This document shows positions 43,176-63,909 of a DNA stretch of 64,000 nt, piece by piece. The notes below the pieces were generated by a model, which had not been told where the DNA came from, made no database searches, and worked only from the letters and a program-made list of their open reading frames with translations. How positions within the stretch are numbered: the stretch's first letter is position 1; every line of letters begins with the position of its first letter. Location of the stretch: assembly GCF_003323715.1 (NCBI RefSeq), contig NZ_QOIN01000048.1, positions 186,001 to 250,000 on the forward strand, read 5' to 3'. Source of the stretch: Streptomyces diacarni (GTDB lineage: Bacteria; Actinomycetota; Actinomycetes; Streptomycetales; Streptomycetaceae). A program made the translations under genes and the position numbers.

Positions 43176-43447
43176 GTGCTCACCCTAGGAGCGGTATCCG
43201 CGCCGGATCTCGTCCTGTGAGACGGTGACGAAGCCCCCTCCCCGGGGCCATCATGGAACATACGGTGAGCCGCTGCGGCCGGCCGGGGCGCGGCCCCGGC
43301 GCCCCCCCCGCTCCCCCCGCTCGCCCCGTCTCCTTCCCGCCCGCGGCGTGGTCCGTCCCGCTCAACGGGAGCTTCGGCACCGGCCCGGTCCGCTCCTGCC
43401 TACGGTCCGAGAGCCGATCGGAGGCGACGGAGGGGACGGGAGAGCAC

Positions 43448-44239: not shown

Positions 44240-44347
44240 CGAGAGAGGCCCTGGTCGCCACCCCCGTCCTCGCCCCTCGGCGCTTTCGGTCTGCGGGGCG
44301 GCCGGGGCGGGCCGACGCAACCACCACAGACGGGAGAGCCACCCCTC

Positions 44348-45301
44348 ATGTCAACGCAAGTGCCGCGCAAGGCGCGGGCCGCGATCGTCGGGCCCGGGAA
44401 CATCGGTACGGACCTGCTGTACAAGCTGCTGCGATCCGCGCACGTGGAGCCCCGCTGGATGGTGGGCGTCGACCCGGCCAGCGAGGGACTGGAACGGGCC
44501 GCGCGACTGGGTCTTCAGACCAGCCACGAGGGGGTGGACTGGCTGCTGGAGCGGCCCGAGACGCCCGACCTGGTCTTCGAGGCGACCAGCGCGGCGGTGC
44601 ACCGCGCCCACGCGCCCCGCTACGCCGAGCGCGGCATCCCCTGCGTCGACCTGACCCCGGCGAAGCTCGGTCCCGCCGTCGTCCCCGCGGTGAACCTGGA
44701 CGCCCACCTGGACGCGCCGAACGTCAACCTGATCACCTGCGGTGGCCAGGCGACCATTCCCATGGTGGCCGCCGTCTCCCGCGTCGTGCCCGTCCCCTAC
44801 GCGGAGATCGTCGCCTCCGTGGCGTCGCCGTCCGCGGGACCCGGCACGCGGGCCAACATCGACGAGTTCACCCGCACCACCCGCTGGGGCATCGAACACA
44901 TCGGCGGTGCGGAGCGCGGCAAGGCCATCATCATCCTCAACCCGGCCGAGCCGCCGATGCTGATGCGCGACACGGTCTACTGCCGGCTTCCCGACCGGGT
45001 GGACGAGGACACCCGGCAGGCGATCACGGCCTCCGTCCAGGACATGGCCGCCTCCGTCGCCGCGTACGTGCCCGGCTACCAGCTGCGCGGCGAACCGCAG
45101 TTCGAGGAGGCGACGCCCACGGCACCCGCCCGGGTCGCGATCCTCCTGGAGGTCGCGGGGGCCGGCGACTTCCTCCCGCCGTACGCCGGGAACCTCGACA
45201 TCATGACCGCCGCCGCGACCCGCGTGGGGGAGGGGTTCGCCGCGCGGATCACGGCACGGACGGGACCCGGCGCTTCCGAGCCGTCGTCGACCACCGCATG
45301 A
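44348..45301 (+). CDS. hsaG: acylating acetaldehyde/propionaldehyde dehydrogenase HsaG
   Basis: This 317-aa enzyme converts propionaldehyde (or acetaldehyde) plus CoA and NAD to propionyl-CoA. The Rossmann start is [20 protein letters not shown], the catalytic Cys is in [12 protein letters not shown] near residue 131, and the C-terminal [20 protein letters not shown] is complete. It works in a channelling complex with the aldolase that follows. GGGAGAG before the ATG. Stop overlaps the next start (ATGA). Close in sequence to mycobacterial HsaG; a general MhpF role in other aromatic pathways cannot be excluded from this gene alone. Confidence 0.92.
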
Positions 45302-46380
45302 CCGCCCGAAGGGGAGCACCCACCTTGACCACGCCGACCACGCCGACCGCACTCGACATCCGGGTCACCGACTCCTCCCTGCGCGACGGCTCGCACGCCA
45401 AGCAGCACCGCTTCACCGCCGACCACGTCCGCTCCATCGTCGCCGCGCTGGACGACGCGGGCGTCCCCGTGATCGAGGTGACGCACGGGGACGGGCTGGG
45501 CGGATCCTCGTTCAACTACGGATTCAGCCACACCCCCGAACAGGAACTGATCGCCCAGGCGGTCAAGACGGCGACCAGGGCGCGCATCGCCTTCCTCATG
45601 CTGCCGGGGCTCGGCGTCAAGGACGACATCAGGGCGGCCTGCGACAACGGTGCCGAGATCTGCCGGATCGCCACGCACTGCACCGAGGCGGACATCGCCG
45701 ACCAGCACTTCGGGCTCGCCCGCGAACTCGGCCTGGAGACCGTCGGCTTTTTGATGATGGCGCACAGCCGGCCCGCCGAGGTGCTGGCGGCCCAGGCCCG
45801 CCGGATGGCCGACGCGGGCTGCCAGTGCGTGTACGTCGTCGACTCGGCGGGCGCCCTCGTCCTGGAAGAGGTCACGGACCGGGTGGCCGCGATGGTCGCC
45901 GCACTCGGTGACGACGCCCAGGTCGGCTTCCACGGGCACGAGAACCTGGGCCTGGGCGTGGCCAACTCGGTGCTCGCCGTCCGCGCCGGAGCCCGGCAGA
46001 TCGACGGCTCCACGCGGCGGTTCGGAGCGGGCGCGGGCAACACCCCGGTGGAGGCGTTCACCGCGGTCGCCGAACGCCTCGGCATCCGTACCGGCATCGA
46101 CGTCCTCAAGATCGCCGACGCGGCCGAGGACGTGGTGCTGCCCGTCATGGACGAGGAGTGCAAGCTGGGCCGCCTGGAGCTGATGATGGGCCACGCGGGC
46201 GTCTACTCCAGCTTCCTCAAGCACGCCGACCGCTGGGCCCGCCGCTACGGTGTCTCCGGCGCGCGGATCCTGCTGCGCGCGGGGGAGCGCGAGCTCGTGG
46301 GCGGTCAGGAGGACCAGCTCATCGACATCGCCAGGGAACTGGCCGCCGAGGACGCCACGACCGCCCCGACAGGAGGCTGA
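45298..46380 (+). CDS. hsaF: 4-hydroxy-2-oxohexanoate/oxovalerate aldolase HsaF
   Basis: This 360-aa HMGL-like TIM barrel with communication domain cleaves 4-hydroxy-2-oxohexanoate to pyruvate and propionaldehyde. The metal site starts at [17 protein letters not shown] near residue 24; [20 protein letters not shown] and the His pair [16 protein letters not shown] are intact. ATG at 45298 overlaps the hsaG stop; a TTG at 45325 with AAGGGGAG upstream is the alternative. Third gene of the ring A end-module. Confidence 0.92.
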
Positions 46381-47674: not shown

Positions 47675-48835
47675 ATGAGCGCGCGCAGCGGCACGGACCA
47701 CGGACCACGGACCATCGAGGCGGGCGCACCACCCACCCGGTACGCGCGGGGCTGGCACTGCCTCGGCCTCGCCGCGGACTTCAAGGACGGCAGGCCCCAC
47801 GAGATCGAGGCGTTCGGCACGAAACTCGTGGTCTTCCAGGCGGAGGGCACGGGTCGGCTGCACGTGCTCGACGCCTACTGCCCCCACATGGGCGGCAACC
47901 TCGCCGACGGCACTATCAAGGGCGACGCGCTCGCCTGCCCGTTCCACGACTGGCGGTGGGGCGGCGACGGCAGGTGCGCCGGCATCCCGTACGCGCACCG
48001 GGTTCCGCGCCGGGCCCGCACCCGCGCCTGGCGCACGCTGGAGGAGAACAAGCAGCTGTTCGTCTGGCACGACCCGCAGGGCGCGTCACCTCCTGAGGGG
48101 GTGACGATCCCACGCATCGAGGGGGCGTTCAGCGGCGAGTGGAGCGACTGGACCTGGCACACGCTGCGCATCGACGGCGCCAACTGCCGGGAGATCGTGG
48201 ACAACGTCGTCGACATGGCCCACTTCTTCTACGTCCACCACTCCTTCCCCACCTACTTCAAGAACGTCTTCGAAGGGCACGTCGCCACCCAGTACATGAC
48301 CAGCGACCCGCGCGAGGACATGACCGCGGCCGACACCCTCTCCGCGCAGGGCAGGCTGCGCTCCGAGGCCTCGTACCACGGTCCTTCGTACATGATCGAC
48401 CACCTGTGGACGGAGGTCGGCGACGCGACCGTCGAGACGGTGCTGATCAACTGCCACTATCCGGTGGCGCCCGACGCGTTCGTGCTGCAGTACGGGGCCC
48501 TCGTCAAGAAGCTGCCCGGCATGAGCGACGAGGAGGCGGCGCAGGCCGCGGCCCAGGCGTCCGAAGGGCTGGCCGCCGGCTTCGAGGAGGACGTCGCCAT
48601 CTGGCGGAACAAGACCCGCATCGACAACCCGCTGCTGTGCGACCAGGACGGTCCCGTCTACCAGCTCCGCCGCTGGTACGAGCAGTTCTACGTGGACGCG
48701 GAGGAGGTGGGCGCGGAGATGACCGACCGCTTCGAGTTCGAGATCGACACCGAGCGGGCCGTCACCGTCTGGCGCGCCGAGGTCGAGGCCAACCTGGCGA
48801 GCCGCCGGGACGCGGCCACCGCAGGGGAGGGGTGA
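47675..48835 (+). CDS. kshA: 3-ketosteroid 9-alpha-hydroxylase oxygenase KshA
   Basis: This 386-aa Rieske non-haem iron oxygenase hydroxylates C9 of 3-ketosteroids, which leads to opening of ring B. The Rieske ligands are Cys69-x-His71 and Cys88-x2-His91 (YCPH, CPFHDWRWGG). The mononuclear iron site is D180-x2-H183-x4-H188 in NVVDMAHFFYVHHS. RYARGWHCLGLAADFKDGRP and HSFPTYFKNVFEGHVATQYM are near-identical to known KshA. GGAGG precedes the ATG at 47675. The partner reductase KshB is not in the window. Confidence 0.94.
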   Translation: MSARSGTDHGPRTIEAGAPPTRYARGWHCLGLAADFKDGRPHEIEAFGTKLVVFQAEGTGRLHVLDAYCPHMGGNLADGTIKGDALACPFHDWRWGGDGRCAGIPYAHRVPRRARTRAWRTLEENKQLFVWHDPQGASPPEGVTIPRIEGAFSGEWSDWTWHTLRIDGANCREIVDNVVDMAHFFYVHHSFPTYFKNVFEGHVATQYMTSDPREDMTAADTLSAQGRLRSEASYHGPSYMIDHLWTEVGDATVETVLINCHYPVAPDAFVLQYGALVKKLPGMSDEEAAQAAAQASEGLAAGFEEDVAIWRNKTRIDNPLLCDQDGPVYQLRRWYEQFYVDAEEVGAEMTDRFEFEIDTERAVTVWRAEVEANLASRRDAATAGEG

Positions 48836-50003: not shown

Positions 50004-50615
50004 TCAGCGGACTGGTCCGGTCGGCCCCTTCGGGTCACCCGCCGGGGCGACGCACGCGCCGTCGAGGTAGAGGCGCGTCACCGACTCGGCGGCCTCGTCG
50101 AGCGAGTCCCCGATCAGCTGCGGGTACAGCAGCGCGCCCTGGATGAGCACCCCGTGCAGCGCACCGAGGCGTTGCGCGCTCAGATCCGCGCGGAAGACGC
50201 CTTCCCGCTGCCCGCGCCGCGCCAGCTCGACCAGCGGCCCGGACACCGCCAACTCGCGCTCGCTCGGCCCCTCGGCAGGCCCTGAGGCCACCAGTGTCCA
50301 GTACGCGCGTCCCACCCCGAGCAGGGCGCGGGTGGTGCGCACCACCGTCGCGCGCAGCTCCCCGCCCTCGTGCAGTGCCGCGCTCACGGCGCGTACCCCC
50401 TCGTCGGCGGAGAACTGGGACAGCTCCGTCAGCAGCGCCTCGCGCGTGGCGAAGTGCCGGTAGACGGTGGCCCGGCCCACTCCGGCGGCCCGCGCGATGT
50501 CCGCCATGCCGGCGCCCGTTCCCCGCTCACGCAGCGCCGCCGCGGCTCCGCGCAGGATGACCCGCCGCTGGCGCACCGACTGGGAGGACTCTTCCGCACC
50601 GCTCACGCCAGGCAC
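50004..50615 (-). CDS. TetR-family regulator
   Basis: This 203-aa regulator has an HTH at about residues 20-65 (MADIARAAGVGRATVYRHFA) and a C-terminal all-helical ligand domain. GTG at 50615 is used; GTG at 50606 is possible. It lies 54 bp downstream of ipdC on the same strand, thus probably co-transcribed with the ipd operon. It is distinct from KstR2 in sequence; target unknown. Confidence 0.87.
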   Translation of the reverse strand: MPGVSGAEESSQSVRQRRVILRGAAAALRERGTGAGMADIARAAGVGRATVYRHFATREALLTELSQFSADEGVRAVSAALHEGGELRATVVRTTRALLGVGRAYWTLVASGPAEGPSERELAVSGPLVELARRGQREGVFRADLSAQRLGALHGVLIQGALLYPQLIGDSLDEAAESVTRLYLDGACVAPAGDPKGPTGPVR

Positions 50616-50669: not shown

Positions 50670-51797
50670 TCAGGGAACCCCCGGAGGCTCCGGCCCGGAC
50701 GCGGCAGCCGGACCGGAGCCGACCCGCGAGGCCAGCGCCGTCAGCTGCCGGGCCGCCTGTGCGACCGTCGTCTCCACCACCTCGGCGACGCTCGGCAGGT
50801 CGTCGATCAGCCCGGCCACCTGCCCCGCCGCCATCACCCCCGCGTCGGTACGGCCCTCCACCATGGCGGCCTTCAGCAGCATCGGGGTGTTGGCGGCCAG
50901 CAGCGTCTGCGCCCACGTCAGGTCCTTGCCGAGGCGCAGCGCCCGGCCGTCGCGGAGCATCGCCGCCCACGACAGACCCGAGTCCTTCTTGAAGGCGGCG
51001 GCGTGGCGCAGCGCCCGCAGCAGGGAGGCCACCCGGCCCGACGACTCCAGCGCGGCGACCATCTCGCTGCGCAGCATCCGGTGCGGCAGCCCGTCGACCT
51101 TCGTGGTGACGGTGACGTCGGTGACCTTCGCCGCCAGGTACCGGGCCTTGACCGCGTCGGGCACCGTCGACTCGCGGGTCAGCAGGAACCGGGTGCCCAT
51201 GGCGGCGCCGGCCGCGCCGTAACACAGCGCCGCGGCCAGCCCACGCCCGTCGCGGAAGCCGCCCGCGCCGATGACCGGCAGGTCCACGGCTTCGACCACC
51301 TGCGGCAGCAGCACCGAGGTGGCGACCTGCCCGGTGTGCCCACCGCCCTCGCCGCCCTGCACCAGCACCGCGTCCGCACCCCAGGCGGCGACCTTCTCCG
51401 CGTGCCGGACCGCGCCGACGGACGGGATGACGACCACCCCGGCGTCCTTGAGCGTTTCGATCAGCTCCCGCGAGGGGGCGAGCGCGAACGAGGCCACGCG
51501 CACCCCCTCCTCGATGAGGAGCCGCACCCGATCGGCCGCGTCCCCGGCGTCGGCGCGCAGGTTGACGCCGAACGGTGCGCAGGTGCGGGACCTGACCTCA
51601 CGCACCGCCTCCCGGAGCCGCGGCAGCGTCATCGTGGCGGACGCCAGGATGCCCAGCGCCCCGGCCTCGGCCGTCGCCGCGACCAGCCGCGGCCCGGCCA
51701 CCCAGCCCATGCCGGTCTGCACGAGCGGGTGGCGCACCCCCACGAGCGACGTCAGCGGCGTGCTGAGGGGGCCTGCGGGGGCCGGGCCGGCGGTCAT
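50670..51797 (-). CDS. ipdC: HIP-pathway flavin oxidoreductase IpdC (2-nitropropane dioxygenase fold)
   Basis: This 375-aa FMN enzyme of the nitronate monooxygenase fold has HPLVQTGMGWVAGPRLVAAT, VASFALAPSRELIETLKDAG, QGGEGGGHTGQVATSVLLP (FMN phosphate loop) and AALCYGAAGAAMGTRFLLT. These follow mycobacterial IpdC. In the KstR2 pathway IpdC acts on CoA thioesters of the ring C/D hydrindane before ring D is opened. ATG at 51797 overlaps the ipdB stop (ATGA). Order ipdA-ipdB-ipdC as in Mycobacterium. Confidence 0.93.
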   Translation of the reverse strand: MTAGPAPAGPLSTPLTSLVGVRHPLVQTGMGWVAGPRLVAATAEAGALGILASATMTLPRLREAVREVRSRTCAPFGVNLRADAGDAADRVRLLIEEGVRVASFALAPSRELIETLKDAGVVVIPSVGAVRHAEKVAAWGADAVLVQGGEGGGHTGQVATSVLLPQVVEAVDLPVIGAGGFRDGRGLAAALCYGAAGAAMGTRFLLTRESTVPDAVKARYLAAKVTDVTVTTKVDGLPHRMLRSEMVAALESSGRVASLLRALRHAAAFKKDSGLSWAAMLRDGRALRLGKDLTWAQTLLAANTPMLLKAAMVEGRTDAGVMAAGQVAGLIDDLPSVAEVVETTVAQAARQLTALASRVGSGPAAASGPEPPGVP

Positions 51798-52549
51798 GCG
51801 CGCACCTCACGGTCGCGGGCGCCGCCCGGATCCAGCACCTCGCGGATCAGCCGCAGTTCCTCCGCGCTCGGTTCCCGGGTGGTGGGCACCTCGTCCGGAA
51901 CCTGGAGCGCGAACCCCGTGCGTTCGAGCACGAGCGCCACGTCGACGCCCGGGTGGACGCTCGCCAGCCGCATCCGGTGGTCCGCCGTGGCGAAGTCGAG
52001 CACCGCCAGGTCGGTGACGACGCGCCGCAGCCCGTGGAACCGGGCGGCCGCGGGCCCCGCCTCGGCCGCCCGGTCGAAGCCCACGCCGCTGACCATGTCC
52101 ACGCGCTCGACGAACACCCGCGTCGAGTGCCGCGGCACCCAATAGGAGACCGGGTGGTTGACGGTGTTGGAGGGGGCGCCGCGCGCGCCGAGCAGTTGCC
52201 GCGCGGGCCGCTCCCACGGGCCGATGCAGGAGATGTTCTGGTTGCCGTACCCGTCGAGTTGGCTGGCGCCCATCATCATGTGGCGCCTGCCGCGCGCCGC
52301 GAGGGAGAGGTGCTTGCGGTAGGGCAGCCAGCCCTCGATGTGCGTGGGGTCCTCGGGGTCGGCCAGCAGCATGGCCTCCGAGTCGGTCAGCAGCAGTGCG
52401 GGGGAGAAGGTCAGCCGCGCCAGGCGGGCGCCGAGTGCCGGTACGGTGCCGGCCGTGGCGGCCAGCACCTCCCCGTCGCCGCGCCAGGCCTCGGCGCAGG
52501 CGACGACGCAGACTTCGGCGCGGGTGGCGGCGGTGGCAGTGGTGGTCAC
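51794..52549 (-). CDS. ipdB: COCHEA-CoA hydrolase subunit IpdB (CoA-transferase fold)
   Basis: This 251-aa beta subunit of the IpdAB hydrolase has the type I CoA-transferase fold. RHMMMGASQLDGYGNQNISC and RVVTDLAVLDFATADHRMRL are diagnostic. With IpdA it opens ring C of the COCHEA-CoA intermediate, using the transferase scaffold as a hydrolase. Start GTG at 52549 (VTTTATAATRAEV) overlaps the ipdA stop by 4 nt (GTGA). Confidence 0.93.
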   Translation of the reverse strand: MTTTATAATRAEVCVVACAEAWRGDGEVLAATAGTVPALGARLARLTFSPALLLTDSEAMLLADPEDPTHIEGWLPYRKHLSLAARGRRHMMMGASQLDGYGNQNISCIGPWERPARQLLGARGAPSNTVNHPVSYWVPRHSTRVFVERVDMVSGVGFDRAAEAGPAAARFHGLRRVVTDLAVLDFATADHRMRLASVHPGVDVALVLERTGFALQVPDEVPTTREPSAEELRLIREVLDPGGARDREVRA

Positions 52550-53427
52550 TGGCTGGTGTCCTTCCGCTGTGAACCGGTCTCTTCCGCGGAGCCGTCGACG
52601 GCCCTGCGGTAGTCGTCCTCGTCTCCGGCGAGGAAGCGCTCCTCGAACGCCCGCCACGCCTGGGGGTCCTGCGCCGCCCGCACGTACGCGCGCTGGAACG
52701 CCTCGTCGCGCCCGTAGTCGGGGGCGCAGCTGGTGAAGTGCGCGCCGCCCGGGGTGTGCAGCACGCCGGTGACGTTCTGCCGCTGCACCAGCAGCGACTG
52801 CGGCGGCCCCTCGAACCGCTCCACGAGCTGCTCGCAGGACAGGTACGTGCGCTCGGCGGCCTCGGTGAACAGGTCGTCGAAGTACGGGTCGGGGCCGCGG
52901 AACTGCCCGTTGCCGCGCACGTCGGCGCGGTTGACGTGGACGAGCGCCACGTCCATCCGCAGCGCGGGCGCCGCCAGCAGTTCCTCGCCGTCCTCGTACG
53001 GCGAGGTGACGGTGCGCAGCCGGGGGTTGTGGCGCGGCACGTCGGAGCCGAGGCCGCCACGCACCGGCATGAACGGCAGCCGGTGCGCGGCGGCCGTCAG
53101 CCCCCACAGGAACATCGACTCGTCCCACTCCTCGAAGGCGAAGGCCCCCGACTCGCGGGCCGCACGGAAGTGCGGCTCCAGCGGCACCGAGTCCAGTGTC
53201 ACGAAGGGCGCCACCAGTCTGCCGATCCGACCGGCCGCCGCCAGCAGTCCCACGTCCGGCCCGCCGCAGGAGATGACGGTCAGGTCCTTCACGTCCGTGC
53301 GCAGCAGTGCCCGCACCAGCGCCATCGGCTTGCGGCGCGCACCCCAGCCGCCGATGCCGACGGTCATGCCGGACTCGATCCGGGCGGCGAACTCCTCGGT
53401 CGTCAGGCGTTTGTCGAGGTCACTCAC
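52546..53427 (-). CDS. ipdA: COCHEA-CoA hydrolase subunit IpdA
   Basis: This 293-aa alpha subunit has MTVGIGGWGARRKPMALVRA, a loop GLGSDVPRHNPRLRTVTSPY, and the C-terminal PGGAHFTSCAPDYGRDEAFQ shared with mycobacterial IpdA. It forms the ring C-cleaving heterocomplex with IpdB. Start GTG at 53427 with GGGAGG upstream; 5 bp after the echA20 stop. Central gene of the four-gene echA20-ipdA-ipdB-ipdC unit. Confidence 0.93.
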   Translation of the reverse strand: MSDLDKRLTTEEFAARIESGMTVGIGGWGARRKPMALVRALLRTDVKDLTVISCGGPDVGLLAAAGRIGRLVAPFVTLDSVPLEPHFRAARESGAFAFEEWDESMFLWGLTAAAHRLPFMPVRGGLGSDVPRHNPRLRTVTSPYEDGEELLAAPALRMDVALVHVNRADVRGNGQFRGPDPYFDDLFTEAAERTYLSCEQLVERFEGPPQSLLVQRQNVTGVLHTPGGAHFTSCAPDYGRDEAFQRAYVRAAQDPQAWRAFEERFLAGDEDDYRRAVDGSAEETGSQRKDTSQ

Positions 53428-53432
53428 GTCGT

Positions 53433-54194
53433 TCAGCCTCCCTGCGCGGCACGCGCGTCGACGAAGGAGTTCCGGTGCCGGTCGGCGACACCGCTCAGGT
53501 TGGCCTCGAAGGTGAAGCCCTGTTCGTAGCGGTAGCTGCGGCGCACGTCCACGGGGTCGATTCCGTTGAGGGCTTCCTTGGCCAGGCGCAGCAGATAACC
53601 GTCCTTGCCCGCGATCTCCTCAGCCAGCCCCAGCGCCGCGTCCAGCAGCGTGTCCGCGCTCTCGGCCAGCTCCCACACGGCACCGTGCCGGTGCAGTGCG
53701 CGGGCTGTGAGGGTGCGCCCCGTGTAGTACAGGGTGCGCATCAGGTGGGGCGGCAGCATGCGGGAGAGGTGGGTGGCCGCGCCGAGGGCTCCCCGGTCGA
53801 GTTCGGGGAGCCCGAAGGTGGCGTCCTCGCTCGCCACGATCGCGTCGGCGTTGCCCACCAGGCCGATGCCGCCGCCGAGGCAGTGGCCGTGGACGGCCGC
53901 GACGACGGGGACCTCGCACTCGTAGACCGCCGCGAACGCGGCGGCGCAGCCCCGGTTGGCCCCGATGAGGGCCTCGTGCCCCTCGGTGCGCTGCATCTCC
54001 TTGATGTCGACCCCGGCGTTGAACCCGCGGCCCCTGGCGGTCAGCACCACGGCGCGTACGGCCTGGTCGCGGCCCGCGGCGGTGACGGCTTCGGCCAGGT
54101 CGTACCAGCCGCGCACGGGGAGGGCGTTGACGGGTGGATGGTCGACGGTCACCACGGCGACGCCGTCGCGTGGTGTGGAGGTGGAGACAGTCAT
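53433..54194 (-). CDS. echA20: ring D hydrolase of the HIP pathway, EchA20 (crotonase fold)
   Basis: This 253-aa crotonase has AEGRGFNAGVDIKEMQ-type oxyanion strand (TARGRGFNAGVDIKEMQRTE) and HGHCLGGGIGLVGNADAIVA. Specific segments such as TFGLPELDRGALGAATHLSR and SYRYEQGFTFEANLSGVADR match EchA20, which hydrolyses ring D of the HIEC-CoA intermediate. First gene of the leftward operon. The ATG at 54194 is preceded by a dyad at 54216-54233 shared with the ipdF/crotonase promoter. Confidence 0.94.
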   Translation of the reverse strand: MTVSTSTPRDGVAVVTVDHPPVNALPVRGWYDLAEAVTAAGRDQAVRAVVLTARGRGFNAGVDIKEMQRTEGHEALIGANRGCAAAFAAVYECEVPVVAAVHGHCLGGGIGLVGNADAIVASEDATFGLPELDRGALGAATHLSRMLPPHLMRTLYYTGRTLTARALHRHGAVWELAESADTLLDAALGLAEEIAGKDGYLLRLAKEALNGIDPVDVRRSYRYEQGFTFEANLSGVADRHRNSFVDARAAQGG

Positions 54195-54215
54195 GGACGG
54201 ATCAGCTACCTTTCC

Positions 54216-54233
54216 ACCTAACGTTTGTTTGGT
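54216..54233. promoter_or_regulatory. candidate KstR2 operator at the echA20 promoter
   Basis: Minus strand ACCAAACAAACGTTAGGT carries the dyad CCwAACnnnnGTTwGG and matches the site at 59447-59464 in 14 of 18 positions. It lies 22 bp upstream of the echA20 ATG. It fits the published KstR2 motif only moderately by itself. Confidence 0.6.
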
Positions 54234-54314
54234 GAGAAGCTAGCAGTGCGCCGGTGCGCTGCGAAAGAGAGGAAGCCGTTTCACCGCGCCGGGCCGACCG
54301 GTCGGCACCGACCC

Positions 54315-54350
54315 GGCCCCGGCCCCGGCCCCGGCCCCGGCCCCGGCCCC
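54315..54350. repeat. six tandem copies of GGCCCC
   Basis: A perfect hexanucleotide array, with further broken copies to about 54372, lies between the divergent echA20 and SDR promoters, 60-95 bp upstream of the SDR start. Confidence 0.85.
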
Positions 54351-54409: not shown

Positions 54410-55168
54410 ATGACCGTTGCCGTCGTCACCGGCGGAACCCGCGGAGTGGGCGCGGGCATCGCCCGCGCGTTCCTGAGCACCGGCGCCGAGGTCGTCGTCT
54501 GCGGCCGCCGCCCGCCCCGGACCCCACTCACCGCGGCGGGCCGCGAGGCCCGCTACCTCCCCCTCGACGTCCGCGACCCGCACGCCGCGCAGGAGTTCTG
54601 CGCCCAGGTGGCCCGCGAGCACGGAGCCCTCGACGTCCTGGTCAACAACGCGGGCGGCACCCCCTACCGCCCGCTGTCCGAGGGCTCGGCCGACCACCAC
54701 GCGCGCGTGATCGAGCTCAACCTGCTGGCCCCGCTCCACCTCTCCCGCGCCGCCCACACCGTCATGCGCGAACAGACGGGCGGCGGAGCCATCGTGATGG
54801 TCGGCAGCGTCAGCGGCGAACGCCCGTCGCCGGGCACGGCCGCGTACGGGGCGGCCAAGGCGGGCCTGGAGAACCTGGCGCGGTCGATGGCGATGGAGTG
54901 GGCCGAGGAGGGGATCCGGGTCAACACGGTCGTTGTCGGTATGGCCCGCACCGAGCGGACCGCGCTGCACTACGGGGACGAGGCCGGGGTCGCGGCCGTC
55001 GCTGCCACGGTGCCGATGGGACGGCTCGCCGAACCCGAAGAGGTGGGGGACGCCTGCGTCTTCCTGGCCTCGGACGCCGCCCGCTACGTCTCCGGCGCCT
55101 CGCTCGCCGTCCACGGTGGCGGCGAACGCCCCGCCTTCCTGCACGCGGCGAACGTCAACCGACCCTGA
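54410..55168 (+). CDS. short-chain dehydrogenase, Rv3549c-like (steroid ring C/D cluster)
   Basis: This 252-aa SDR has the NAD(P) loop VVTGGTRGVGAGIARAF at the N-terminus, NNAGG near residue 78, and catalytic Ser in VGSVSGERPS with YxxxK as YGAAKAGLENLAR. The position beside echA20 matches the Rv3549c gene of the mycobacterial KstR2 regulon. Likely role: oxidation of a hydroxyacyl-CoA in ring C/D breakdown (inference). GAGGGA precedes the ATG at 54410. Confidence 0.85.
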   Translation: MTVAVVTGGTRGVGAGIARAFLSTGAEVVVCGRRPPRTPLTAAGREARYLPLDVRDPHAAQEFCAQVAREHGALDVLVNNAGGTPYRPLSEGSADHHARVIELNLLAPLHLSRAAHTVMREQTGGGAIVMVGSVSGERPSPGTAAYGAAKAGLENLARSMAMEWAEEGIRVNTVVVGMARTERTALHYGDEAGVAAVAATVPMGRLAEPEEVGDACVFLASDAARYVSGASLAVHGGGERPAFLHAANVNRP

Positions 55169-55212
55169 GCCGCCACCCCACCACCCCCAGACACCACCCC
55201 TCAGGAGGTCAC

Positions 55213-56145
55213 ATGTCCGCACAGCACACGTCCGCTCCCCGTCCGGCCGAGGGCCGGGTCGTCGTCGTCACCGGAGCGGGGCGGGGCCTGGGCAGGGCAC
55301 ACGCGCTCGCGTTCGCCCGCGCCGGCGCACGGGTCGTCGTCAACGACCTCGGCGTCGCGCTGGACGGCGGAACCGGCGCGGAGACGCCCGCCGCACAGGT
55401 GGCGGCGGAAATCCGGGCGGAGGGCGGCGAAGCCGCCGTCAGCACGGACGACGTCGCCGACAGCGCGGGCGCCGCCGCACTCGTCCGCACGGCGCTGGAC
55501 CACTTCGGACGCCTCGACACCCTCGTCAACAACGCCGGTTTCCTCCGCGACCGGATGCTGGTCAACCTCGACGAGGACGACTGGGACGCTGTCGTCCGCG
55601 TTCACCTCAAGGGCCACTTCCTGCCGATGAAGCACGCGGCGGCGCACTGGCGCGCCGAGACGAAGGCGGGCCGCACACCGCAGGCCCGCGTGGTCAACAC
55701 CTCCTCCGGCGCGGGCCTGCTGGGCGCGGTGGGCCAGGGCAACTACACGGCGGCCAAAGCGGGGATCGCCGCGCTGACCCTCGTCGCGGCGGCGGAGTTC
55801 GGCCGCTACGGCGTCCAGGTCAACGCCGTCGCACCGGCCGCCCGCACCCGCATGACCGAGCAGGCGTTCGCCGAGGACATGGCGGCTCCCACCGACGGCG
55901 GTTTCGACGCGATGGCCCCGGAGAACGTCTCGCCCCTCGTCGTCTACCTGGGCTCGGCCGCGTCCGCCGGTGTCACAGGACGCGTCTTCGAGGCCGAGGG
56001 CGGCCGCATCACCGTCATGGACGGCTGGCGCCGCACCGCCCACACCGACAAGTCGGCCCGCTGGGACGCGGCGGAGCTGGATACTCCGATCCGCAAGCTC
56101 CTCCACGAGGCCCCCGCCCCCGAACCGGTCTACGGGGCGCGGTGA
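55213..56145 (+). CDS. short-chain dehydrogenase, Rv3548c/17beta-HSD4-like
   Basis: This 310-aa SDR has VVVTGAGRGLGRAHALAFAR and VVNDLGVALDGGTG (typical of MFE-2/HSD17B4-like enzymes). NNAGFLRDRMLVNLDEDDWD and the catalytic TSSGAGLLGAVGQGNYTAAK follow. A C-terminal extension follows the Rossmann domain. Such enzymes oxidise 3-hydroxyacyl-CoA. A perfect CAGGAGG ribosome site precedes the ATG; it lies 44 bp after the preceding SDR in the same operon. The ortholog in Mycobacterium is part of the KstR2 regulon. Confidence 0.86.
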   Translation: MSAQHTSAPRPAEGRVVVVTGAGRGLGRAHALAFARAGARVVVNDLGVALDGGTGAETPAAQVAAEIRAEGGEAAVSTDDVADSAGAAALVRTALDHFGRLDTLVNNAGFLRDRMLVNLDEDDWDAVVRVHLKGHFLPMKHAAAHWRAETKAGRTPQARVVNTSSGAGLLGAVGQGNYTAAKAGIAALTLVAAAEFGRYGVQVNAVAPAARTRMTEQAFAEDMAAPTDGGFDAMAPENVSPLVVYLGSAASAGVTGRVFEAEGGRITVMDGWRRTAHTDKSARWDAAELDTPIRKLLHEAPAPEPVYGAR

Positions 56146-56557: not shown

Positions 56558-57721
56558 CTACACCCGTTCGATGATCGTCACGTTCGCCTGCCCCCCGCCC
56601 TCACACATGGTCTGGAGCCCGAACCGCCCCCCGCTGCGTTCCAGTTCGTGCAGCAGTGTCGTCATCAGCCTGGTACCGGTGGCACCCAGCGGGTGCCCCA
56701 GCGCGATGGCGCCGCCGTTGACGTTGACCTTCTCGGGATCGCAGCCGGTGTCCTTGAGCCAGGCGAGCACGACGGAGGCGAACGCTTCGTTGATCTCGAC
56801 GAGGTCGATGTCGTCGAGGGACATGCCGGCCCGCTTGAGGGCGTGCGCGGTCGCCGGGATGGGCGCCGAGAGCATGCGGATGGGGTCTTCGCCGCGTGCC
56901 GAGAGGTGGTGCACGCGGGCGCGCGGGGTGAGGCCGTGGGCGCGGACGGCCTCTTCGGAGGCGAGCAGCATGGCCGAGGAGGCGTCGGAGATCTGCGAGG
57001 AGACGGCCGCGGTGAGCCGCCCGTCTTCCACCAGCGGGTCGAGGGAGGCCATCTTCTCCAGGGTGGTGCCGCGCCGGGGCCCCTCGTCGGCGGTGTGGTC
57101 GCCCAGCGGCGCGGTTTCCCGCTCGAAGTGTCCCTCGTCGAGCGCGCGGATGGCGCGCTGGTGGGAGCGCAGGGCCCAGCGTTCCATCTCCTCACGGCTG
57201 ATGTCCCACTGCTGGGCGATCAGTTCGGCGCCGTGGAACTGGTTGACGGGTGCGTCGCCGTAACGGGCCCGCCAGCCGGTGGAGCCGTGGTAAGGGCCTT
57301 CGGTGAGGCCGAGGGGGTCGCCGGCTTGGCGTGAGGCGTAGGCGATGGGGATTTGCGACATGTTCTGCACGCCGCCGGCCACCACCAGGTCCGCGGTGCC
57401 CGACATGACGGCTTGGGCGGCGAAGTGCAGGGCTTGCTGGGAGGATCCGCACTGCCGGTCGACGGTGACGCCGGGTACCGACTCGGGCAGGCCTGCGGCC
57501 AGCCAGGCGGTGCGGGCGATGTCCCCGGCCTGCGGTCCGACGGTGTCGAGGCAGCCGAGGACGACGTCCTCGACGGCTTCCGGGTCCACGTCCGCCCGCT
57601 CGACCAGCGCGCGCAGCGTGTGCGCGGCCAGGTCGGCCGGGTGGACGTCGGCGAGCGCGCCGCCGCGCTTGCCGACGGGGGTCCTGACCGCTTCGACTAT
57701 GTAGGCCTCGCCGCGGGACAT
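56558..57721 (-). CDS. fadA6: acetyl-CoA acyltransferase FadA6 (thiolase)
   Basis: This 387-aa thiolase has the nucleophilic Cys in VDRQCGSSQQALHFAAQAVM near residue 92. The GHP triad is GGAIALGHPLGATG near 340 and the second Cys is in LQTMCEGGGQANVTIIERV. Stretches GGVQNMSQIPIAYAS and IRMLSAPIPATAHALK follow mycobacterial FadA6, the thiolase that completes degradation of the ring C/D skeleton. ATG at 57721 (MSRGEAYIVEAV) after GAGGAG. It lies 68 bp downstream of kstR2 on the same strand. Confidence 0.93.
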   Translation of the reverse strand: MSRGEAYIVEAVRTPVGKRGGALADVHPADLAAHTLRALVERADVDPEAVEDVVLGCLDTVGPQAGDIARTAWLAAGLPESVPGVTVDRQCGSSQQALHFAAQAVMSGTADLVVAGGVQNMSQIPIAYASRQAGDPLGLTEGPYHGSTGWRARYGDAPVNQFHGAELIAQQWDISREEMERWALRSHQRAIRALDEGHFERETAPLGDHTADEGPRRGTTLEKMASLDPLVEDGRLTAAVSSQISDASSAMLLASEEAVRAHGLTPRARVHHLSARGEDPIRMLSAPIPATAHALKRAGMSLDDIDLVEINEAFASVVLAWLKDTGCDPEKVNVNGGAIALGHPLGATGTRLMTTLLHELERSGGRFGLQTMCEGGGQANVTIIERV

Positions 57722-57789
57722 CCCGTTCACACTCCTCGTTTGGGTGGGCCCACCGGAGGCGTGCGCCTCAGGGGGCGATGACGTGCGTC

Positions 57790-58389
57790 TCAGGTGGCGA
57801 TTCCGTCGAGCACCATCGACGTGTACTGTTCGGCGATCTCGGCCGCGCTCTTGCGTCCTTCGGGCCGGAACCAGACGGCGGCGACCCAGACGGTGTCGCG
57901 GACGAACCGGTAGGCGACGGGCACGTCGAGGCCGGCGCGGAAGCTGCCGTCGGCCACGCCGCGTTCCAGCGTGCGGGTCCACAGTTTCTGGAACCGTTCC
58001 TGGGAGTCGGCCAGGTAGCGGAACCGTTCCTGGGAGGCGAGCCGGCGTGCTTCCTTCTGGTAGATGACGACGGCGGGGCGGTGCCGCTCCATCTGCCGGA
58101 ACGACTCGGTGACGAGGCCTTCGAAGGTGGCGCGTGGTGACGTGCCGGTCTCCTCGATCCGCTGGTAGCCCTCCCACAGGTCGGTGAGGAAGGCGCTGAG
58201 GATCTCGTCGGCCATCGATTCCTTGGAGTCGAAGTGGTAGTAGAGGCTGCCCGCGAGCATTCCGGCGCGGTCCGCGATGGTGCGGACGGTCGTGGCGTTG
58301 TAGCCCAGTTCCGCGAACACCTCGGCCGCGGTCGCGAGCAGTTCGGCCCGGCGCCCGGCGCCGTGGGGGGTTTTCTTCGGCGTCACCAT
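57790..58389 (-). CDS. kstR2: TetR-family repressor KstR2
   Basis: This 199-aa TetR protein has an HTH TTVRTIADRAGMLAGSLYYH. The ligand-domain segments RPAVVIYQKEARRLASQERF and AYRFVRDTVWVAAVWFRPEG closely follow mycobacterial KstR2, which represses the HIP regulon until it binds HIP-CoA. The ATG at 58389 (MVTPKK) lies 88 bp after ipdF. It is in the leftward unit ipdF-kstR2-fadA6, implying autoregulation if the site at 59447 is its operator. Confidence 0.92.
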   Translation of the reverse strand: MVTPKKTPHGAGRRAELLATAAEVFAELGYNATTVRTIADRAGMLAGSLYYHFDSKESMADEILSAFLTDLWEGYQRIEETGTSPRATFEGLVTESFRQMERHRPAVVIYQKEARRLASQERFRYLADSQERFQKLWTRTLERGVADGSFRAGLDVPVAYRFVRDTVWVAAVWFRPEGRKSAAEIAEQYTSMVLDGIAT

Positions 58390-58477: not shown

Positions 58478-59278
58478 TCACGGGTGGCGGCTGCTGACGG
58501 CGACCGTCTCGCCCGTCATGTACGAGGAGTAGTCGCCGGCCAGGAAGACGATCACGTTGGCGACCTCCCACGGTTCCGCGTATCGGCCGAACGCCTCCTG
58601 GGAGGTCAGGTCGGCCAGGAGTTCGGGGGTGGTGACCTTCGCCAGGTTCTCGTGCATGGCGAGGGAGGGTGAGACGGCGTTGATCCGTACGCCGAGTTCG
58701 GCGGCCTCCAGCGCGGCGCAGCGGGTGAGCGCCATGACGCCTGCTTTGGCCGCCGCGTAGTGCGCCTGGCCGCGTTGGGCGCGCCAGCCGACGACCGAGG
58801 CGTTGTTGACGATGACTCCGCCGTCGGGCTGGTCGCGCATCGTCCGCAGGGCGGCGCGGGTGCAGCGGAAGGTGCCGTTCAGGGTGACGTCCAGGACGCG
58901 GGACCACTGCTCGTCGGTCATCTCCACCACCTCGGCGGTGCCGCCGAGCCCCGCGTTGTTGACGAGCACGTCGACGCGGCCGTGGTGGGTGGTGCAGGCG
59001 TCCAGGAGGGCGCGCACCTCGTCCTCGTCGGTGACGTCGCAGCGCTCGGCGTGTACCCGCTCGGGCCCGAACTCCGCTGCCAGGGCCCGTGCGCTCTCGT
59101 CGAGACGGCGGGCGTGGGCGTCGCCGATGACGACGCCTTCGGCGCCTTCTTCCAGGACGCGGCGGGCCGTCGCCCCGCCGATCCCGCTTCCGGCGGCGGC
59201 GGTGACGACGACGGAGCGGCCGGCCAGCAGTCCGTGGGGGGGTGGGCAGGCGGGCGGGGTGCTGCTCGCTCGGATCAC
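58478..59278 (-). CDS. ipdF: 5-hydroxy-HIP-CoA dehydrogenase IpdF (SDR)
   Basis: This 266-aa SDR has VVVTAAAGSGIGGATARRVL (the unusual TAAAGSGIG cofactor loop) and NNASVVGWRAQRGQAHYAAA then K of the YxxxK motif. The C-terminal FLAGDYSSYMTGETVAVSSR matches mycobacterial IpdF. It oxidises 5-OH-HIP-CoA to HIP-CoA. Start GTG at 59278 with AAGGGG 6 nt upstream; upstream in-frame codons fall in GC repeats. First gene of the leftward ipdF-kstR2-fadA6 unit. Confidence 0.92.
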   Translation of the reverse strand: MIRASSTPPACPPPHGLLAGRSVVVTAAAGSGIGGATARRVLEEGAEGVVIGDAHARRLDESARALAAEFGPERVHAERCDVTDEDEVRALLDACTTHHGRVDVLVNNAGLGGTAEVVEMTDEQWSRVLDVTLNGTFRCTRAALRTMRDQPDGGVIVNNASVVGWRAQRGQAHYAAAKAGVMALTRCAALEAAELGVRINAVSPSLAMHENLAKVTTPELLADLTSQEAFGRYAEPWEVANVIVFLAGDYSSYMTGETVAVSSRHP

Positions 59279-59309
59279 GCGGAGCCCCTTCTGTGGTGGT
59301 CGCGGTCTT

Positions 59310-59358: not shown

Positions 59359-59446
59359 GGTCGCGGTGTTTCTCGGTGCTGTGGCGGTCGCGGCCGGCTC
59401 CGCCGCCGGGTGGGTCTCGACGTGGCCGTCGGGGCCAAGCTAATCT

Positions 59447-59464
59447 ACCAAACACTTGTTAGGG
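59447..59464. promoter_or_regulatory. KstR2 operator between ipdF and the crotonase gene
   Basis: ACCAAACACTTGTTAGGG contains ACCAAACACTTGTT, which fits the KstR2 motif AnCAAGnnCTTGnT at 9 of 10 defined positions. It shares CCwAACnnnnGTTwGG with 54216-54233. It lies 46 bp upstream of the rightward crotonase ATG and 169 bp upstream of ipdF, so it could control both. Confidence 0.75.
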
Positions 59465-59509
59465 AAGCCCTCGCCGAGGAGAGCACGCGAGCACCGAGGA
59501 GAGCAGCCC

Positions 59510-60415
59510 ATGCCCGACGACACCGAGAAGAACCCCGGCGCGGCCGATGTCGTGACCTACGAGCGCGTCGGCGCGGTCGCCCGCGTCACCCTCAACCGGC
59601 CCGACTACCGCAACGCGCAGAACTCCGCGATGACCTACGCCCTCGACGCGGCCTTCCGGCGCGTCGCCGACGACGACGAGGTCCACGCGCTCGTCCTCGC
59701 GGGCGCGGGCAAGCACTTCAGCGCGGGACACGACATCGGCACGCCCGAACGCGACGCCCACCTGAGCTTCCCCCGCAAGGCGGGCCTGTGGTGGGACCAC
59801 GTCGGCAAGGAGGGCGCCGATGCGCGGTACGCCCGCGAGTCCGAGGTCTATCTGGGCATGTGCCGCCGCTGGCGCGAGCTGCCCAAGCCCGTCGTCTGCG
59901 CCGTGCAGGGCGCCTGCGTGGCCGGCGGACTGATGCTCGCCTGGGTGTGCGACCTGATCGTGGCCAGCGAGGACGCCTTCTTCGCCGACCCGGTCGTGCG
60001 CATGGGCATCCCCGGCGTCGAGTACTTCGCCCACCCCTGGGTGATGGGGCCGCGCATCGCCAAGGAGTTCCTGTACACGGGGGAGAGGATGAGCGCGCGG
60101 CGCGCGTACGAGATCGGGATGGTCAACCGCGTCGTCCCGCGCGCCGACCTCGCCGCCGAAGCGGACGCGCTGGCCGCCCGCATCGCCGGGATGCCGCGCT
60201 TCGGGCTCGCCCTGACCAAGCGCGCCGTCAACCAGGCCGAGGACCTGATGGGCCTGCACAACGGCCTCGACTCCGTCTTCGGACTGCACCACGTGGCGCA
60301 CGCGCACAACGCCGAGACCGGTGCGGACTCGCTCGGCGGCATGGACGCGCGAGGGATGCGGGACGCGGCACGGCGCGCCGCGGGGCCCGCGGCCGAAGCA
60401 CCCGAGGGAGCCTGA
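59510..60415 (+). CDS. enoyl-CoA hydratase/isomerase family protein (crotonase)
   Basis: This 301-aa crotonase has LAGAGKHFSAGHDIGTPERD (oxyanion strand, near residue 65) and VQGACVAGGLMLAWVCDLIV near 140, with the acidic DPVVRMGIPGVEY segment. A longer N-terminal half than EchA20 suggests a different substrate, probably hydration of the enoyl-CoA made by the adjacent dehydrogenases during MOODA-CoA breakdown (inference). GAGGAG precedes the ATG at 59510; ends 2 bp before the next gene. Confidence 0.86.
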   Translation: MPDDTEKNPGAADVVTYERVGAVARVTLNRPDYRNAQNSAMTYALDAAFRRVADDDEVHALVLAGAGKHFSAGHDIGTPERDAHLSFPRKAGLWWDHVGKEGADARYARESEVYLGMCRRWRELPKPVVCAVQGACVAGGLMLAWVCDLIVASEDAFFADPVVRMGIPGVEYFAHPWVMGPRIAKEFLYTGERMSARRAYEIGMVNRVVPRADLAAEADALAARIAGMPRFGLALTKRAVNQAEDLMGLHNGLDSVFGLHHVAHAHNAETGADSLGGMDARGMRDAARRAAGPAAEAPEGA

Positions 60416-61584: not shown

Positions 61585-62628
61585 ATGCGCCTGCTGCCCG
61601 ACCAGGACCAGACCGCCTACGCGCGCACCGTGCGCGGGATCCTCGCCGACGCCTCACCGCCGAAGGTCGCCCGCGCCTGGGCAGCGGGCGACCACGCGCC
61701 CGGGCGCGCCCTGTGGCGCTCCCTCGCCGCGACCGGCCTGCCCGCCCTCGCCGTGCCCGAGGAGCACGGCGGCGTCGGCTGGTACCCCGCCGAACTGGCC
61801 GCCGCCTTCGTCGAGATCGGCCACGCCGGGGCCCCGGGGCCGCTCGTCGAGACGGTCGCCGTGGCGGCTGCCCTGCCGGGCACCCCCGCCTGGAGCGAGG
61901 AGCTGCTGACGGGCGAGAGGCTGGCGACGGTCACCGACCCGGCGGCCCGCGGCTACGCGGTCGACGCCCACGCCGCGGACGCCGCGTACGTCCTGACGCA
62001 CGAGACCGGCGCGGTACCCGCGCGCGGGGACGGCGCCCCGGGGCCGGGGAGCAGGGGTCCGGCCGCTGGAGCGGGCCCCTCGGCGCTCTTCACCGCCGCC
62101 TCGCGCGGCGCCCCGCTGCCGTCCGTCGACCCGACCCGGCACCTGATCCGGTGCGCCCCGGGCGAGGCGGTGCCGGGCGATACCGGACGCCTGCGGGCAC
62201 TGGCGACCCTGTTGACGGCGGCGCAACTGCTGGGCGCGGGGCAGGCGCTGCTCGCGGGCAGCGTGGAGTACGCCGGGGCGCGGCACCAGTTCGGGAGGGC
62301 CATCGGCTCCTTCCAGGCCGTCAAGCACCAGCTGGCGGACGCCGCCGTCGCGCTGGAGTTCGCGGTGCCGCTGCTGCGCGGCGCGGCGCTGGCCGTACGC
62401 GGGGACGCGGCGGCGGACCCACGCGACCTGCCCGCCGCCAAGGCGGCCTGCGCGCGGGCAGCCCACCGCGCGGCCCGCACCGCGCTCCAGGTGCACGGCG
62501 CCCTCGGCTACACCGACGAGTACGACCTCACGCTGCTCCTCCGAAAGGCCCATGCCCTGCGGACGGCGTGGGGCACCGAGGCCGCCTGCCGGGCCGCCGT
62601 CCTCGCGGACAGGCTGCTGCCCGGCTGA
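61585..62628 (+). CDS. acyl-CoA dehydrogenase, FadE subunit 2
   Basis: This 347-aa shorter dehydrogenase has GLPALAVPEEHGGVGWYPAE near residue 48 and the C-terminal helices VEYAGARHQFGRAIGSFQAV and ALQVHGALGYTDEYDLTLLL, the latter lining the FAD adenosine site. A Gly/Pro/Ala-rich insertion (near residues 145-165) is unusual. Partner of the preceding gene in a presumed heterotetramer acting on a steroid-derived CoA ester. Last gene of the island. Confidence 0.87.
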   Translation: MRLLPDQDQTAYARTVRGILADASPPKVARAWAAGDHAPGRALWRSLAATGLPALAVPEEHGGVGWYPAELAAAFVEIGHAGAPGPLVETVAVAAALPGTPAWSEELLTGERLATVTDPAARGYAVDAHAADAAYVLTHETGAVPARGDGAPGPGSRGPAAGAGPSALFTAASRGAPLPSVDPTRHLIRCAPGEAVPGDTGRLRALATLLTAAQLLGAGQALLAGSVEYAGARHQFGRAIGSFQAVKHQLADAAVALEFAVPLLRGAALAVRGDAAADPRDLPAAKAACARAAHRAARTALQVHGALGYTDEYDLTLLLRKAHALRTAWGTEAACRAAVLADRLLPG

Positions 62629-62730: not shown

Positions 62731-63909
62731 ATGCGACTGATGACGAGAACCCCGAGAGCCCCGAGGGGCCGGAAACGTGCGCGGGTCGGTGCGGCCGTCG
62801 GCGTCGTCGTCCTGGTGGCGGCAGGGTGCGGCGACGGGTCTCGCCAGGGGCGCGCGGAAGTGGCCCCGGGGGTCATCCCGTTCACCTCGGCGGTGGTGAC
62901 CGACCACACGGACGGCGCCTCGACGGTGCGGTGGTCGGCCCCGGGCGCGGGATCGGTCACCGTCTACGCCGAGGGCGAGGGCGAGGGCGAGGGCGAGGGC
63001 GAGGGCGAGGGCGGCGGGGAGGGCCGGAAGGAGGGCGAGGGCGGCCGCGTCGCCAAGGGGGAGGCGCGTGACGCGGTCACCCTGCGGTCTGCCGAGCAGG
63101 ACGGGCGCCGGTGGTTCCGGCTGGTGCCCGACAAGGGCCGCTCCCTGCGGCTCGCGGACCGCTCCCTCGGCCTCGCCTCCGTGCCCAACTTCCGTGACGC
63201 GGGCGGATACCGCACGGCGGACGGGCGCTGGGTGGCGATGGGCAAGCTCTACCGTTCGGCGAGCCTCGACCGGCTCTCCGCCGCCGACCGCCGCACACTG
63301 CGCCGCCTGGGCATCGACCCCGTACTCGACCTGCGCACCACAGGGGAGGCGCGCAAGCAGCCCGACGCCCTCGGCGAGGGGCAGCGGCCGCGGCGTCTCG
63401 ACGTGCTGGGCGGCGGTGAGTCCCTCGCCAACACCCAGCCCACCTCGGCGGACCACGCCCGCACCCTGCTGCGGGACTCCTACGAAGACTTCGTCGCCGC
63501 GAAGACCGGCCGCGCGGCCTACCGCGACCTGTTCGCTCAGGCCGCGGACCCGGACGGCGAGGCGGTCCTCTACCACTGCACCGCGGGCAAGGACCGCACC
63601 GGCTGGGCCTCGGCCGCCCTCCTCACCGCCCTGGGCGTGCCCCGCTCCACCGTCGTGCGCGACTACCTGGCCTCCAACCGCTACCTGACCGCCTACAACC
63701 GCCAGGCACGCGCCCAGCTGCCCGACGCGGTGGAGGACGCCTACGAGCCGCTGCTCGGTGTGCGGAAGACCTACCTCGACGCGTCCTTCGCGCGCGTCGA
63801 CCGCGACTACGGCACCTTCGACCGCTACCTGTCCTCGGGCCTGCGCCTGGCCGACGACGACCTGGCGGCCCTGCGCGACGAACTCCTGGTGGGCGAATCG
63901 GAGCCTTGA
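62731..63909 (+). CDS. secreted tyrosine-protein phosphatase-like lipoprotein (MptpB type)
   Basis: This 392-aa protein has a lipoprotein-like signal (VGAAVGVVVLVAAGCGDG, lipobox AAGC, Cys near residue 33) and a short beta domain interrupted by an (EG)7 repeat. The phosphatase domain begins at SVPNFRDAGGYRTADGRWVA and has the P-loop HCTAGKDRTGWASAALL near residue 287 (Cys nucleophile, Lys-Asp-Arg as in MptpB). It acts outside the membrane on phosphotyrosine or phosphoinositides by family. ATG at 62731, leaderless spacing. Confidence 0.87.
   Translation: MRLMTRTPRAPRGRKRARVGAAVGVVVLVAAGCGDGSRQGRAEVAPGVIPFTSAVVTDHTDGASTVRWSAPGAGSVTVYAEGEGEGEGEGEGEGGGEGRKEGEGGRVAKGEARDAVTLRSAEQDGRRWFRLVPDKGRSLRLADRSLGLASVPNFRDAGGYRTADGRWVAMGKLYRSASLDRLSAADRRTLRRLGIDPVLDLRTTGEARKQPDALGEGQRPRRLDVLGGGESLANTQPTSADHARTLLRDSYEDFVAAKTGRAAYRDLFAQAADPDGEAVLYHCTAGKDRTGWASAALLTALGVPRSTVVRDYLASNRYLTAYNRQARAQLPDAVEDAYEPLLGVRKTYLDASFARVDRDYGTFDRYLSSGLRLADDDLAALRDELLVGESEP
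62971..63012 (+). repeat. seven tandem copies of GAGGGC inside the phosphatase gene
   Basis: A perfect 42-bp hexanucleotide array encodes (Glu-Gly)7 in the N-terminal domain; further broken units continue to about 63046. Being in multiples of three, gains or losses would keep the frame. Confidence 0.9.

Follow-up and report, generated by a model that had tools for sequence, protein, structure and literature searches.

We find that two dyads of the pattern CCWAACNNNNGTTWGG in the window (the whole 64-kb stretch of DNA analysed here), together with a third copy elsewhere in the genome, are very probably operators of a lineage-specific type, controlled by the KstR2 repressor encoded at 57790-58389. 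From sequence comparison, we assign this reading a probability of about 0.92. The KstR2 regulon comprises the genes that degrade the last two steroid rings, and its repressor is steroid-sensing. Each window dyad sits between two divergent transcription units. The features to which we refer are listed below; gene names that go beyond model matches were given by homology and conserved order.

50004-50615: second TetR gene
50670..51797, minus strand: ipdC (FabK-like reductase); TIGR03151 232 bits, under cut-off; conserved order
51794..52549, minus strand: ipdB (CoA transferase beta); Pfam CoA_trans 22.1 bits against a gathering score of 23; conserved order
52546..53427, minus strand: ipdA (CoA transferase alpha); generic CoA-transferase models below cut-offs; order conserved in relatives
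53433..54194, minus strand: echA20 (enoyl-CoA hydratase family); NF005925 400 bits, above cut-off
54203..54208, minus strand: TAGCTG, 8 bp from the dyad; candidate −10 of the echA20 promoter, proposed from its sequence
54216..54233: predicted KstR2 operator, minus-strand sequence ACCAAACAAACGTTAGGT; exact dyad between echA20-ipdABC (minus) and two short-chain dehydrogenase genes (plus)
54241..54246, plus strand: TAGCAG; candidate −10 of the divergent dehydrogenase promoter, likewise proposed
54410-55168, plus strand: SDR gene 1, divergent from echA20; NF005893 368 bits
55213-56145, plus strand: SDR gene 2, divergent from echA20; adh_short
56558..57724, minus strand: fadA6 (thiolase); NF005865 693 bits, above cut-off
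57790..58389, minus strand: kstR2, TetR-family repressor; TetR_N and TetR_C_24 domains; recognition helix GMLAGSLYYHF
58478..59281, minus strand: ipdF (SDR); NF005880 446 bits, above cut-off; name by homology and position
59441..59466: extended conserved footprint TAATCTACCAAACACTTGTTAGGGAA; genus consensus TAACCTACCAAACACTTGTTAGGGAA from 34 aligned sites, the window's included
59447..59464: predicted KstR2 operator ACCAAACACTTGTTAGGG; exact dyad between ipdF-kstR2-fadA6 (minus) and the crotonase and acyl-CoA dehydrogenase genes (plus)
59510-60415, plus strand: crotonase gene, divergent from ipdF; NF006140 446 bits
60418-61578 and 61585-62628, plus strand: two acyl-CoA dehydrogenases, divergent from ipdF; Acyl-CoA_dh domains; TIGR03204 181 bits, under cut-off

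The best PDB matches of the TetR protein encoded at 57790-58389 (phmmer) are 2ibd (E 2.8e-62), annotated on deposition as a possible transcriptional regulator, and 4w97 and 4w1u (E 3e-55), both structures of KstR2; the next chain after these KstR2-type matches has an E of 7e-23. Its gene is linked to the HIP-catabolism genes ipdABC, echA20, fadA6 and ipdF. On this similarity, the gene is an orthologue of kstR2. The best named plasmid matches of FadA6 are two Streptomyces replicons (84% and 80%), and the corresponding figure for KstR2 is 69%.

The two 18-mers, at 59447-59464 and 54216-54233, are identical at 14 of 18 positions, as the sequence-only reading had reported. Exact matches of the dyad CCWAACNNNNGTTWGG in the window are at 54217-54232 and 59448-59463, and allowing up to two mismatches adds no other. 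Because shuffled sequence gives a mean of 1.58 matches at that tolerance, only the exactness of the matches is unusual. None of 200 first-order Markov resamples of the window contained an exact match. This statistic is circular, because the pattern was derived from the same two sites; comparative conservation is the independent test. The whole genome (7.66 Mb in 80 contigs, 72.5% G+C) contains three exact copies of the dyad, the same pattern written backwards has no match in all 7.66 Mb, and the narrower pattern CCWAACNNTTGTTWGG, searched with one mismatch allowed, returns the same three places only.

We compared the promoters of 50 same-genus loci, the window included, eight of which hold KstR2 without ipdF and fadA6 or echA20 nearby; the ipdF-side criterion allowed 1650 bp to span an interposed fadE30-like gene. 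The dyad was found at 42/42 testable ipdF-side promoters and 34/34 testable echA20 promoters, so the motif scan of orthologous promoters that had been proposed as a check finds it conserved. It is kept although gene order varies between genomes, and all 76 sites carry AAC/GTT arms. On the ipdF side, the conserved footprint extends beyond the dyad. On the echA20 side, the dyad of the window starts 22 bp from the start codon, and CAGCTACC occupies the place of the candidate −10 element in 22 of the 27 sites listed (counted by eye); the spacing between the dyad and the candidate element of the dehydrogenase promoter varies among relatives. The echA20-SDR intergenic region also contains six-base repeats of the ccccgg type (54315-54350), and a separate run of six-base gagggc repeats (62971-63012) lies inside a phosphatase gene, where it encodes a run of EG dipeptides.

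A second set of 80 named loci (34 titled Nocardia, with Rhodococcus, Gordonia, Lentzea, Mycobacterium and others, and one metagenome contig titled Acidobacteriaceae) has a corresponding site at 75/75 ipdF-side and 33/33 echA20 testable promoters. The arms there are AGC/GCT in 74 ipdF-side and all 33 echA20 sites, and one site is mixed. It is the same site as the same-genus dyad, with G/C replacing A/T at two mirrored positions; the earlier suggestion that the operator has drifted in this lineage thus takes a definite form, G/C to A/T at mirrored positions. Over both sets, the backwards control matched 11/117 ipdF-side and 0/67 echA20 promoters. This control alone was used, because permuted palindromes include near-copies of the site (CCAWRC, 116/117). 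Although some 0.4 chance occurrences of the pattern must be reckoned with in each genome (36 control matches in 91 genomes, see below), its presence at both promoters in every testable same-genus locus makes it most improbable that the dyad reflects chance or promoter-sequence similarity with no regulator behind it, and the backwards controls, in the promoter sets and in the genome census alike, reject a chance origin.

Among 21 further family loci (19 from other genera and 2 from the same genus), eight were not assessable and the rest gave 11/13 and 10/12, the misses being L196 and L202, far relatives by the tree; L205, L196 and L202 showed no site by either promoter criterion. By family, sites were present at 5/6 ipdF-side and 4/5 echA20 promoters in f19, at 8/8 and 6/6 in f28 (arms AGC or mixed) and at 0/6 ipdF-side (variant arm) and 2/2 echA20 promoters in f3; the promoter counts leave out five f20 loci to which the criterion is not applicable. 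Mixed-arm sites are also present in other families. In two named Streptomyces replicons, L230 and L231, the cluster has the dyad on its ipdF side; the echA20 site is the dyad in L230 and a mixed-arm site (AGC and GTT) in L231. The replicons that bear the cluster in these two strains are linear, 1.5 and 2.8 Mb in size, and recorded as plasmids.

At a threshold of E 1e-30, KstR2 is present in 85/150 genomes (its own included) and in 71 of the 91 genomes of the genus; loci were fetched for part of the KstR2-positive genomes. The 91 genomes contain 142 dyad matches as compared to 36 for the backwards control, so that about 0.4 chance matches per genome are expected. KstR2 and the dyad occur together in 67 genomes, KstR2 only in 4, the dyad only in 2 and neither in 18 (Fisher p 2.6e-13, uncorrected for kinship). 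IpdA is found in 68 of the 91, namely the 67 with both KstR2 and the dyad and G064. Each of those 67 has an exact dyad at one place or more. In the 68th, G064, both sites are present but differ from the dyad by one base each; its pathway genes lie apart from kstR2, one of its sites has mixed AAC/AGC arms, and its KstR2 has the Y-type helix. Three of the KstR2-only genomes (G052, G053 and G072) carry a KstR2 that is only 51-54% identical, and no IpdA. Dyad positions across the 91 genomes were taken among the matches listed, and all dyads of the fetched loci were located; among those matches, single extra dyads in G031, G041, G083, G013, G024 and G048 have other spacers and stand at chance level, and a single dyad in G045 has a spacer like that of true sites, with no matching pathway gene in its 3-kb locus. 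In nine loci (L034, L051, L053, L055, L069, L070, L081, L087 and L192), KstR2 is a paralogue or unlinked, and the pathway genes are not adjacent. The KstR2 of L192 has its own dyad nearby, that of L087 has one about 1 kb away, and those of L069, L070 and L081 have H in place of Y in the helix.

The third dyad, at G000:C77:316448, has the same footprint as the ipdF site of the window. The gene facing it is 71-83% identical to the gene between the operator and ipdF in nine same-genus genomes and 70% over a partial match in a tenth (L062); against the FadE30-position gene of three Mycobacterium loci, its identity is 62-64%. On these identities, it is the FadE30 orthologue. The FadE30-like gene is absent from the window cluster and located elsewhere in the genome with its own copy of the operator.

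The positions of these sites agree with those of the known regulon. Mycobacterial KstR2 is an established repressor at sites of this kind, and the M. tuberculosis protein gel-shifts three of its own sites, including those at the echA20 and fadE30-ipdF promoters (Kendall et al. 2010, PMC3068626, in the text available). The ipdF site of the window is identical at 17/24 bases to the gel-shifted Rv3560c/Rv3561 site AACCTACCAAGCACTTGCTTTGTT; the fadE30-ipdF side corresponds, whereas the other side is fadD3 in M. tuberculosis and the crotonase gene here. The regulon of Mycobacterium and Rhodococcus, as far as it is described in the accessible part of PMC3068626, is also alike in its orthologous repressor, its divergent promoter sites at echA20 and fadE30-ipdF, and the location of the operator a few tens of base pairs from start codons. 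It differs in its arms, AGC/GCT instead of AAC/GTT. Unlike in Mycobacterium and Rhodococcus, kstR2 in canonical same-genus loci lies downstream of ipdF, with no exact site directly before kstR2, and a third operator stands at an unlinked fadE30-like gene. The distance from site to echA20 start is 22 bp here but 39 bp for the orthologue MSMEG_6001, and a distance of 22 bp is given for MSMEG_6000 and MSMEG_6009 (same portion of PMC3068626). The literature searched, with most subscription papers outside its reach, yielded no streptomycete KstR2 operator.

These comparisons bear on a different assignment of the dyad, in which another TetR-family regulator would bind it and take part in controlling the cluster while KstR2 binds elsewhere. 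TetR regulators are numerous, with tens of candidates per genome in a loose first look, most of them unscored, and the window itself encodes a second one at 50004-50615. The sites nevertheless stand at promoters that KstR2 binds in M. tuberculosis (PMC3068626, in part), have those 17/24 bases in common with a proven site and co-occur with KstR2 across the genus, and we therefore regard control by another regulator as improbable, though somewhat less so than chance. Assignment of the dyads to KstR2, as the sequence-only reading proposed for its local operator, is supported by the orthology of the repressor and by the site's recurrence at corresponding promoters in relatives and named loci.

The published KstR2 motif is the 14-bp AnCAAGnnCTTGnT (PMC3068626, available sections), and a longer motif AAGCAAGNNCTTGCTT is described within a 29-nt operator (PMC8228715, available sections). 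Both superpose on the same site as the window dyad, but are centred 2 bp from it: the 14-mer and the dyad share one outer arm and pair it with different partners. Neither window site matches AnCAAGnnCTTGnT exactly. The site at 59447 fits it at 9/10 bases, with one mismatch, and the site at 54216 fits poorly, both as had been stated; the latter has three mismatches in its best register. Because the registers differ by 2 bp, a poor fit to the 14-mer alone is no mark of a weaker second operator. The 14-mer is exact in 81/108 named-locus sites and 0/76 same-genus sites, and the outer 18-mer pattern in 30/108 and 76/76, respectively. The idea that the 14-mer is a mere off-centre piece of the 18-mer was softened by its more frequent exact match in the named loci. 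The four 'spacer' bases were left free in all dyad searches, and yet they read AANN or NNTT in 76/76 same-genus, 107/108 named-locus and 18/21 further family sites; the inner arm is thus preserved. By this sequence evidence, the site is a single composite in which the dyad and the published 14-mer are superposed as two symmetries, a result that is new here. It is possible that two overlapping KstR2 dimers occupy it.

The type of operator arm goes largely with the type of recognition helix in KstR2. Across 140 loci, the helix GILSGSLYHHF occurs in 90, with 142 AGC/GCT sites and 0 AAC/GTT sites, while GMLAGSLYYHF (44 loci) and GLLAGSLYYHF (2 loci) occur with 75 AAC/GTT sites and 0 AGC/GCT sites. 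GMLAGSLYHHF is found in three loci, which have no sites, and GLLAGSLYHHF in one (L088), with two AAC/GTT sites and a second KstR2 in its genome. Four f19 loci combine G[MI]LGGSLYYHF with AAC/GTT arms. The match between helix and operator is not strict, as shown by the mixed-arm sites of L231 and G064 and by L088. In a tree of 98 KstR2 proteins from selected loci, built by a quick method with the helix columns excluded, the 47 rows whose variable helix position is A or G form one clade (SH-aLRT 98). The operators labelled inside this clade are all AA, and those outside it are GG or mixed, except for AA at L184, a far paralogue. L150, from Kitasatospora arboriphila (Streptomycetaceae), has the Mycobacteriales-type helix and AGC/GCT operators, and its KstR2 groups with those of Gordonia and Williamsia, perhaps through horizontal transfer.

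Because the helix-operator match depends mainly on one branch, it is essentially one event, and the many loci count as about one. As far as this tree goes, the operator change coincides with recognition-helix substitutions on essentially one branch of KstR2, a finding that is also new here. These helix positions contact bases in TetR and QacR. The arm change, from ACCAAGC...GCTTGGT in Mycobacteriales to ACCwAAC...GTTwGG in this lineage, would be a G-to-A change at mirrored positions, dating to roughly the branch on which GILSGSLYHHF became G[MIL]L[AG]GSLYYHF. Whether the helix changes compensate the operator change is about an even bet. A neutral change, with both KstR2 types accepting AAC as well as AGC arms and the helix substitutions having merely arisen on that branch without any connection to it, is only a little short of that: mixed-arm operators occur with both helix types and the correlation is essentially one event, although in the 140-locus set neither main helix type holds sites of the other (142 to 0 and 75 to 0). 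We offer tentatively, as a less likely whole, a joint reading in which a single change of specificity, made by KstR2 and its operator together, took place in the ancestor of the Streptomycetaceae-type KstR2 clade (which also includes family f19), via two recognition-helix positions. The operator would then be a composite in which the two outer arms, and TTG/CAA as an inner arm within the 'spacer', serve as three half-sites and form two superposed dyads 2 bp apart. Two overlapping KstR2 dimers may bind there, and the genus lineage would have moved toward the outer dyad.

From the observed sequence, position, conservation and co-occurrence of the sites, and from the protein family, we infer how KstR2 would act on the window dyads. 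Ligand-free KstR2 would occupy them and block the divergent promoters to either side of each. The genes repressed in this way would be echA20-ipdABC, the SDR pair, ipdF-kstR2-fadA6 and the crotonase/acyl-CoA dehydrogenase unit. Of these, the sequence-only reading had placed echA20-ipdABC, ipdF-kstR2-fadA6 and the crotonase unit under the two promoters, and had omitted the divergent SDR pair (54410-56145) at the echA20 site. With ipdF-kstR2-fadA6 repressed, kstR2 would be autorepressed. HIP-CoA, an early intermediate of C/D-ring breakdown and the KstR2 effector (PMC5380842 and PMC9782250, as available in part), is expected to release the repressor.

In most genomes of the genus, the lower-ring regulon seems to be present by itself. 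The KstR model NF033703 was uninformative as an upper-pathway marker (it matched 91/91 genomes, mostly a TetR protein at ~190-200 bits, none over the cut-off), and for this reason we used KshA (PF19298, E up to 1e-40), a marker that could miss other KshA variants. KshA is present in only 8/91 same-genus genomes, all eight IpdA-positive, leaving 60/68 IpdA-positive genomes without it, a result that is likewise new here. The source genome is among the few with KshA and has two copies, at 47675-48835 in the window and at G000:C77:234209-234847, the latter on the same contig as the third operator. The window also carries, at 43253-46380, genes for a hydratase (under the model cut-off) and an acetylating acetaldehyde dehydrogenase (over the cut-off), with an apparent aldolase seen in translation only; they are genes of a meta-cleavage lower pathway, possibly hsaE-G-F for ring A.

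A circuit present without the upper-pathway marker KshA raises the question of its substrate source; streptomycete growth on HIP is cited in PMC5380842 (in the part available). For streptomycetes, the sites described here indicate where KstR2 very probably acts, and the published mycobacterial motif, if only exact matches are sought, would not find them. The two helix types and two arm types, found at the same promoters, form a natural pair in which the co-change of a TetR repressor and its operator may be studied.
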